Shown: positions 6,975-7,911 of the stretch, one piece after another | How the letters are laid out: every line of letters begins with the position of its first letter | Numbering within the stretch: the stretch's first letter is position 1 | From: Sphingorhabdus rigui | Lineage (GTDB): Bacteria; Pseudomonadota; Alphaproteobacteria; Sphingomonadales; Sphingomonadaceae | Reading direction: 5' to 3' | Length of the DNA stretch: 64,000 bases | Assembly: GCF_014196595.1 (NCBI RefSeq) | Contig: NZ_JACIEA010000001.1 | Coordinates: 1,110,546-1,174,545 of the forward strand | Program-made: the position numbers and the translations under genes | Notes under the pieces: model-generated | What the model saw: the letters and a program-made list of their open reading frames with translations, nothing else | What the model was told of the DNA's origin: nothing | Databases searched by the model: none

Positions 6975-7460
6975 TTAGGCTGCGTTTGTGCCTTTTTTCT
7001 TGGCGCTATCTGCGTGCTCAATCACATTAGCTGCAGTTTTGCCGCCAATTGCGATCTTGCGTGGTTTCAATGCTTCCGGCACTTCGCGCACTAACGATAT
7101 AATCAAAAGACCATCGGCCATATCAGCGTCGGTCACATGAATATGGTCCGCAAGTTGGAAGCGACGCTCGAAATTGCGGCTCGCGATGCCCATGTGCAGA
7201 AAATCGCGATTGTCGTTGCCTTCAGCCTGCTTGCTGCCCGTGACGATCAACAAATTCTGCTGTGCTACAATGTCAATCTCGTCGGATTTGAAACCCGCTA
7301 CTGCGACGGTGACTTGATAGTCATTTTCGCCGGTGCGTTCGATATTGAAAGGCGGATAGTTTTCGTTTGTGGCCGCGCGCCCGGTATTTTCGAGCAGTTC
7401 AAACAAGCGGTCAAAACCGACTGTGTTCCGGCGATATGGTGTAAAATCAAAACGTTGCAT
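6975..7460 (-). CDS. Small heat-shock protein, Hsp20/IbpA family
   Basis: A cytosolic ATP-independent holdase of 161 residues. The start MQRFDFTPYRR...FDRLFELLE is typical of proteobacterial IbpA-type proteins. The middle is an alpha-crystallin domain (about residues 35-130, with the pattern YQVTVAVAGF and DGLLIISL), and the tail holds the I-x-I motif (KIAI) used in oligomer assembly. The ATG at 7460 has a GGAG site 8 nt upstream; the open frame extends to 7481 but lacks such a site. It is monocistronic, with a heat-shock-like promoter at 7554-7582 and a leader that resembles a ROSE RNA thermometer. Confidence 0.95.
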   Translation of the reverse strand: MQRFDFTPYRRNTVGFDRLFELLENTGRAATNENYPPFNIERTGENDYQVTVAVAGFKSDEIDIVAQQNLLIVTGSKQAEGNDNRDFLHMGIASRNFERRFQLADHIHVTDADMADGLLIISLVREVPEALKPRKIAIGGKTAANVIEHADSAKKKGTNAA

Positions 7461-7545
7461 ATCAAATTCTCCATCAAGCAATTTGGTGTGTGCTAACCCC
7501 GCAAGCGCAGCAGTCAGCTATGTCGTTTTGGAGCCTTTCGACCTC
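7461..7545 (-). ncRNA. Candidate ROSE-type RNA thermometer in the hsp20 leader
   Basis: The approximately 85-nt leader can form three successive hairpins on the minus strand: GGAG/CTCC; GCTGACT/GGTTAGC; and a start-proximal one at 7463-7485 with a perfect 6-bp base stem (CAAATT/AATTTG). That last stem buries the GGAG ribosome-binding site opposite TTGCT, placing a G opposite a G. The U(U/C)GCU motif facing the Shine-Dalgarno sequence, with a G-G pair, is the known signature of ROSE elements, which open on heating and are common upstream of alphaproteobacterial hsp20 genes. Assignment is by pattern only. Confidence 0.62.
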
Positions 7546-7553
7546 CGGTTGAT

Positions 7554-7582
7554 GAGATGGGGAGTGCACCCAAAATTGCAAG
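7554..7582 (-). promoter_or_regulatory. Sigma-32 (RpoH)-like heat-shock promoter of hsp20
   Basis: On the minus strand CTTG (7582-7579) is followed after 16 nt by CCCCATCTC (7562-7554). This closely matches the heat-shock promoter pattern CTTG...CCCCAT. Transcription would begin near 7545 and give a leader of about 85 nt, a usual size for a ROSE-controlled transcript. Confidence 0.65.
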
Positions 7583-7610
7583 ATGAAAAAATGCATCGCA
7601 AAACAAAGGC

Positions 7611-7650
7611 ACAAAAAACAAGGCCGCCCGGATGTTTCCGAACGGCCTCG
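7611..7650 (-). terminator. Rho-independent terminator on the minus strand
   Basis: The arms AGGCCG (7621-7626) and CGGCCT (7643-7648) enclose a second inner stem (CGGA/TCCG). On the minus strand the hairpin is followed by TTGTTTTTTG (7620-7611), a strong intrinsic terminator. It lies upstream of the hsp20 promoter, so it must end a transcript coming from the right, where the 7677-7799 ORF lies 28 nt away. Confidence 0.75.
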
Positions 7651-7676
7651 CTCTGCAGCTTTGCTAGCGCGTAGTT

Positions 7677-7799
7677 TCAGTCCTCTACCGGTCCCCACCG
7701 GCGGGTCTGATTTTCCCCCTGAACCATCGGCCTGTACAGGCTCTCGACGAATTCCACGCCGTCATCATCCTTTGCGGGCTGCTTTGCAATTGGAACCAC
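7677..7799 (-). CDS. Candidate 40-residue protein divergent from lolC
   Basis: A short open frame starts at GTG 7799 and stops at TGA 7677, between hsp20 and lolC. The predicted product is charged and soluble, with the core GVEFVESLYRPMVQGENQTR followed by RWGPVED. Codons have the GC-rich third positions of the surrounding genes, and a strong terminator follows 28 nt downstream, so something is transcribed here. Against it: the only purine-rich site (GGTGGA) is just 2 nt before the GTG, and the gene is short. A small RNA is the main alternative. I do not recognise the family. Together with the terminator this explains most of the 450-nt gap between hsp20 and lolC; the remaining 7800-7911 should hold the divergent promoters, which I could not pinpoint. 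Confidence 0.45.
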   Translation of the reverse strand: MVPIAKQPAKDDDGVEFVESLYRPMVQGENQTRRWGPVED

Positions 7800-7911
7800 A
7801 CTCCACCGAACGCTTTTTCAAAGGCTGTTGCACCACTGCAACAATGCTTGCCAGTCCTCATGGTGGAACCTAAGAACCGGATATGCCGAAAACATTGACG
7901 AGTGACCGCAC

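Follow-up and report, generated by a model that had tools for sequence, protein, structure and literature searches.

A predicted ROSE-like RNA thermometer in the hsp20 leader of Sphingorhabdus rigui, conserved across the order and overlooked by Rfam

The hsp20 locus and its leader

The window, the whole stretch of 64,000 nucleotides that was analysed, carries a gene for a small heat-shock protein, hsp20, on its minus strand. The following features were assigned to the gene and its leader:

6975-7460, minus strand: hsp20 coding sequence, ATG at 7460-7458, 161 amino acids, matching PF00011 (64.9 bits, E 7.7e-18)
7582-7579, minus strand: CTTG, the -35-like element of a sigma-32-type promoter, read from the sequence
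7562-7554, minus strand: CCCCATCTC, the -10-like element, 16 nt from CTTG; CCCATCT is kept in close genus leaders
7546-7530, minus strand: hairpin I, in the minimum free energy (MFE) fold; a competing alternative pairing of the same stretch is predicted at 37 °C and above
7518-7492, minus strand: hairpin II, in the MFE fold and in the consensus fold of 14 genus leaders
7485-7463, minus strand: hairpin III, the putative ROSE-like thermometer hairpin, nine pairs with G7479 bulged, from the fold, covariation and the covariance model R1 (see below)
7481-7477, minus strand: UUGCU, the anti-Shine-Dalgarno motif, from the sequence and homologous leaders
7472-7469, minus strand: GGAG, the Shine-Dalgarno (SD) sequence, with its last three bases paired in hairpin III and G7472 in the loop

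The ATG start is backed by an alignment of homologues, the N-termini of which read M-x-R-F-D. Among named sequences, those closest to the Hsp20 protein come from uncultured Sphingomonadales and from Sphingorhabdus (S. wooponensis, S. contaminans, and S. profundilacus). Downstream of CCCCATCTC, the leader would comprise approximately 85 nt. Promoters recognized by sigma-32 combine a CTTG -35 element with a CCCCATnT-like -10 element at a suitable spacing, and the CTTG-N16-CCCCATCTC arrangement of the hsp20 leader agrees with this generally known consensus of RpoH promoters. CTTG together with a -10-like box was retrieved from 64 of 110 homologous leaders and from 1.9 % of shuffles, using a regular expression that was composed after the genus leaders had been inspected. 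The same genome encodes an RpoH homologue (G000:C1:1327408-1328229, E 6.0e-92). The sigma-32-like promoter proposed in the initial annotation is a reasonable reading given the RpoH homologue and the recurrence of the elements. We infer from the sequence that this promoter is used, and hence where the 5' end of the hsp20 transcript would lie.

The MFE fold at 37 °C contains the three hairpins that had been suggested for the leader. The shape of hairpins I and II is kept in 14 close relatives; in hairpin II, one pair is changed on both sides among these 14 genus leaders and several changes are one-sided. Hairpin III is formed by pairing of CAAAUU with AAUUUG and of CUU with GAG. That the last hairpin would hide GGAG by means of UUGCU was borne out by both the predicted fold and the homologous leaders. 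The suggested G facing a G was not recovered: G7479 of UUGCU is predicted to be bulged, being unpaired in both the MFE and the centroid fold between conserved flanking pairs. A bulged G is also part of the ROSE motif as described in the available portion of a published study (PMC11342760). The total fold energy of the leader is unremarkable (z -1.1, with 22 of 200 shuffles folding equally well) and was dropped as support for a thermometer; the case for the hairpin therefore rests on comparison.

Conservation and covariation across the order

An hsp20 gene was found in 40 of the 41 genomes of a first set and in 106 of 118 genomes of the order, together 131 distinct genomes. Leaders were compared from 110 of them, one per genome (30 from the first set and 80 from the order set). 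In 109 of these 110 leaders, an SD core lies 1-14 nt downstream of a U(U/C)GCU motif, an arrangement seen in 1.5 % of dinucleotide shuffles; the sole leader lacking it, from genome G125, reads ACGCU. The expected conservation of TTGCT opposite the ribosome-binding site is thereby confirmed, and the arms around it covary. Within its own genus, hairpin III shows little variation, so that most of the informative differences are contributed by leaders of other genera.

Covariation was assessed in two ways. In a MAFFT alignment of the 102 distinct segments among the 110, which is independent of the choice of SD anchor, the nine-pair structure has a standard pair in 86.7 % of the cells, compared to 75.8 % with shuffled partners (none of 500 shuffles was as high) and 40-58 % when the partners were slid by 1-3 columns. 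Cells changed on both sides numbered 88, against 36.8 expected, while two of the five covariation measures used, the number of pairs with both-sided change and that of further pair types, were not above the shuffles. In a hand-anchored count (105 of the 110 rows, 77 of them distinct), with the SD anchored at the final xAG(A/G)A in the purine run, the four arm pairs were formed in 74.7 % of the cells and in 26-43.5 % in slid registers; this value depends on the anchor, as it is 49.9 % with an earlier, poorer one. At one arm pair of hairpin III, AU, UA, GU, UG, and CG all occur. The loop varies freely in sequence and in length (2-9 nt). Upon exchange of the 3' arms between genomes, the own arm folded better on average than those of other genomes in 80 of 94 distinct hairpins (mean -5.4 kcal/mol, swapped -4.0 kcal/mol); the sequences are related and not independent, so the p-value of this exchange is not to be taken at face value. 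Hairpin III, its position on the SD sequence, and its conservation and covariation are thus apparent from the comparison of the leaders.

Rfam families and the covariance model R1

No Rfam family reaches its cut-off anywhere in the 64-kb window. Under permissive filters, RF00435 (ROSE) is the only match in 7440-7620. The search with this family, put forward as a check at the outset, gave a divided answer: all 94 model positions align in the right place (1-94 at 7548-7456), but the score of 19.1 bits (E 0.66) stays under the cut-off of 45. RF02523 (ROSE_3, cut-off 43) does not match the hsp20 leader itself (7440-7620); sub-threshold matches were obtained in two relatives (L021, 30.2 bits, E 0.03, in addition to RF00435; L076, 25.8 bits). 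Seven of 18 homologous loci match RF00435 at the leader with E ≤ 10, and nine of 20 further loci do so with E ≤ 1, the best (L070) with 39.4 bits and E 0.0017; none is above the cut-off. The second hsp20 locus was searched along with the 18 and is not counted among them. Altogether, 59 sequences were given to Rfam and none passed a ROSE cut-off. As the gathering cut-off of RF00435 is not reached, the leaders are not members of the family in the strict sense, even though position, gene, and orientation are consistent in every case. The Rfam ROSE model is thus blind to a putative thermometer hairpin with which 109 of the 110 hsp20 leaders are equipped, and annotation pipelines based on Rfam will miss the element.

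A covariance model of 31 positions and nine pairs, R1, was built from the homologous leaders; since it was trained on them, its matches on these leaders are by construction. In the 2.47-Mb genome, R1 reports one significant site, the hsp20 leader (30.2 bits, E 3.2e-4). The next-best site scores 18.0 bits (E 1.1); this site and one of 15.2 bits were considered as further ROSE elements and taken as chance matches, the reading frames downstream being 59 and 94 amino acids long and lacking a match to hsp20. The second hsp20 gene of the genome has UCGCA in place of the motif and gives no R1 match at E ≤ 10. At E ≤ 0.05, R1 matches 56 of the 118 genomes of the order. Of the 62 matches, 54 are located at hsp20 starts, spread over 53 genomes; the eight others are near the chance expectation of 5.9 and were set aside. 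Tested on 64 named loci, R1 matches 43 at E ≤ 0.004. The 21 loci of the Sphingopyxis type (L187-L205, L207, and L209) yielded only two matches, both weak (E 0.48 and 0.83). Three genomes that look similar to the Sphingopyxis type (G056, G097, and G121) carry UCGCUUU followed by a AAGGAAGGA-like SD sequence, so the hairpin seems to have been remodelled in this lineage. In the class, 57 of 193 genomes have a match. Among 27 class-level loci outside the order that were examined, 18 lie at an hsp20 start, three at rpoH, and six elsewhere; 19 of the 27 were tested with Rfam and none passed a cut-off. R1 thus recovers the hsp20 element, and its range extends to hsp20 leaders of other orders.

Comparison with known RNA thermometers

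The features by which ROSE elements are recognized in the literature, a terminal hairpin with U(U/C)GCU on the SD sequence in the 5' UTR of a small heat-shock gene (here a PF00011 protein), are all found in the leader. The ROSE-like thermometers of hspA in Bradyrhizobium and of ibpA in Pseudomonas and E. coli share with it the terminal 5' UTR hairpin before a small heat-shock gene, the imperfect pairing of U(U/C)GCU to the SD sequence, the predicted bulged G, and the presence of additional hairpins upstream. With Pseudomonas ibpA, it also has a sigma-32-type promoter in common, and two-layer control by such a promoter and a thermometer is known for that gene (PMC3669281, as far as its text was available). 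Hairpins I and II differ in sequence from those of known ROSE elements, as deduced from the poor RF00435 score. A fourU thermometer was considered and rejected, as the partner of the SD sequence is UUGCUU and not four consecutive U. More than 40 ROSE elements have been predicted in diverse alpha- and gammaproteobacteria (Waldminghaus 2005, cited through the accessible parts of PMC4166951 and PMC3669281). In the part of a study on Hsp17 of Sphingomonas melonis that was available (PMC10434288), the word thermometer appears in the reference list alone, and among the literature matches listed, none describes an RNA thermometer in sphingomonads in its title or at the start of its abstract. The element in the window is of a known kind and ordinary by mechanism; its value lies in the order-wide conservation unseen by Rfam and in the lead to rpoH described below.

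Hairpin III as a probable heat-opened element

Taken together, the sub-threshold end-to-end match to RF00435, the motif in 109 of the 110 leaders, and the covarying arms support the ROSE-like reading of the initial annotation. Very probably, the hsp20 mRNA carries a ROSE-like RNA thermometer in which a heat-opened hairpin III covers the SD sequence, downstream of a sigma-32-type promoter. At growth temperature, the terminal hairpin would pair UUGCUU with the SD sequence and keep ribosomes off. Upon heating, the short stem, rich in A and U, that surrounds the bulged G would loosen and free the SD sequence, so that Hsp20 could be made at once, and the sigma-32-type promoter upstream would add heat-induced transcription.

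The opening of hairpin III with heat is expected by analogy with characterized elements. Hairpins of the ROSE type that have the same core gave an approximately 4.7- to 6.3-fold response at 42 °C in reporter assays, and deletion of the bulged G, as reported for the oppF element, weakened the heat response of such a hairpin (both according to the accessible text of PMC11342760). The calculated folds give a different picture. The probability of the C7478-G7469 pair, computed with ViennaRNA, is 0.96 at 30 °C, 0.90 at 42 °C, 0.79 at 50 °C, and 0.45 at 60 °C; the hairpin thus remains mostly closed up to 50 °C and is half-open only at about 60 °C, and a sharp switch at 37-42 °C does not follow from nearest-neighbour folding on its own. 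Between 25 and 48 °C, the predicted opening of the SD sequence, averaged over 25 genus leaders, barely moves (0.41 to 0.44). The folding parameters may be poor for the bulged G and its neighbours, which makes the lack of predicted melting a real but weak point against a thermometer.

The small predicted change between 25 and 48 °C would also fit a hairpin that is real and represses translation without heat as the main signal, being opened by a small RNA or a protein or only setting a low basal rate. A conserved candidate small RNA gene directly upstream points the same way. This possibility is considered unlikely: a loop that is free to vary between 2 and 9 nt next to a conserved core and conserved pairing does not resemble a typical binding site, and the tested ROSE-like hairpins with the same core did respond to heat in the reporter (PMC11342760, in the portion available).

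It is less likely still that control is exerted mainly at the start codon, with AAAACG (7529-7524) and CAU pairing with the AUG region and hairpin III being secondary. The MFE fold at 15-55 °C does pair AAAACGACAU with AUGCAACGUUUU, and it is for the AUG that heat raises the predicted opening, which is 0.01 at 15 °C and 0.34 at 50 °C. Against this, exchanging the start regions between genomes made no clear difference (-8.7 kcal/mol with the own start and -8.5 kcal/mol after the exchange; p 0.78 for 26 distinct leaders), and the AUG is left open in many genus members. The long-range helix of 7529-7524 with 7454-7449, predicted in the leader itself and in its nearest relatives, was rejected for want of support in this exchange. 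Hardly credible, finally, is a conservation of UUGCU and the SD sequence for separate reasons with the hairpin as an incidental product, since, although the core U-A and C-G pairs are nearly invariant and give no covariation signal and the total fold energy is ordinary (z -1.1), the flanking arms covary and form in register (74.7 %, against 26-43.5 % when slid), the MAFFT-based count agrees, and the 3' arm exchange (80 of 94) disfavours it.

On the preferred reading, hairpin III is a ROSE-like thermometer element, kept in the hsp20 leaders that were compared across the order.

Neighbouring RNAs

A candidate small RNA gene was noticed at 7605-7870 on the minus strand, a conserved stretch of approximately 265 nt upstream of hsp20. 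It ends in a terminator-like hairpin followed by a T run (about 7649-7613) and can be aligned across 18 members of the genus, among which long blocks are invariant; in its predicted fold, only three of 55 pairs show both-sided change. The best Rfam match of the stretch, to BSR0739 (14.9 bits), does not exceed chance. A 6S RNA was ruled out, as 6S lies elsewhere in the genome. In two other families of the order, sub-threshold matches to BjrC1505 and SorX, both alphaproteobacterial sRNAs, were seen near hsp20 (L029 1264-1409 and L030 1261-1382, plus strand); the SorX match has 36.3 bits (E 4.1e-05) against a cut-off of 46.6.

ROSE-like hairpins before rpoH

The three class-level R1 loci at rpoH (L121, L122, and L130) lie directly before a sigma-32 gene. 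The encoded proteins match NCBIfam PRK06596 with 336-345 bits, all above the cut-off, and TIGR02392 above its cut-off in L121 only. In one order of alphaproteobacteria with small genomes, that of G205, R1 matches at E ≤ 0.02 in 30 of 43 genomes, where about 0.9 would be expected; of the 30 best loci, 25 are at rpoH. RpoH was found in 41 of these 43 genomes. U(U/C)GCU precedes the SD sequence in 36 of 40 rpoH leaders (all 30 in L238-L267, four of eight in L278-L285, as well as L210 and L212; the incomplete leader of G357 was left out), compared to 2.7 % of shuffles of 27 leaders. The arms of the rpoH hairpin are paired in 91.2 % of the cells and in 19-67 % in slid registers, with changes from U-A to C-G at one pair (41 rows, 32 distinct; L248 and L252 were anchored on the first of two AAGG runs). 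These hairpins are approximately 30 nt long and ROSE-like, and they end ahead of the start codon; that of L121, for example, spans 1501-1532. The rpoH leader of G346 lacks the motif. Those of G341, G342, and G343 (L281-L283) read UAGCU or UGGCU with GUCAU/AUGAC arms that are still paired, and are natural variants of the second position. A ROSE-like hairpin was also seen before rpoH in both of two genomes from the order of G166; RpoH was checked by profile in one, and in the other (L301) the frame reads like RpoH.

HSP20 is encoded in 42 of the 43 genomes of the order of G205, and the motif is absent from all 12 hsp20 upstream stretches sampled there. The part of a 2014 review that was available describes the ROSE family as invariably linked to small heat-shock genes (PMC4166951), and among the literature matches listed, none reports a ROSE-like thermometer on rpoH in its title or at the start of its abstract. 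ROSE-like hairpins are probably not confined to small heat-shock genes: a hairpin of approximately 30 nt would control rpoH in the order of G205, where hsp20 is without one. In the rpoH thermometer of E. coli, too, an mRNA structure puts the translation of sigma-32 under heat control, as would be the case for these hairpins. The E. coli structure extends over the 5' UTR and as much as 229 nt of the coding region (PMC4166951, available portion), whereas the rpoH hairpins of the order of G205 take up approximately 30 nt.

If this is true, one type of SD hairpin acts on the effector gene in other orders of alphaproteobacteria but on the regulator gene in the order of G205, where temperature sensing would have shifted to the top of the heat-shock response. 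Should it prove responsive to heat, the rpoH hairpin would be a compact thermometer of sigma-32 translation, unlike the long structure of E. coli.
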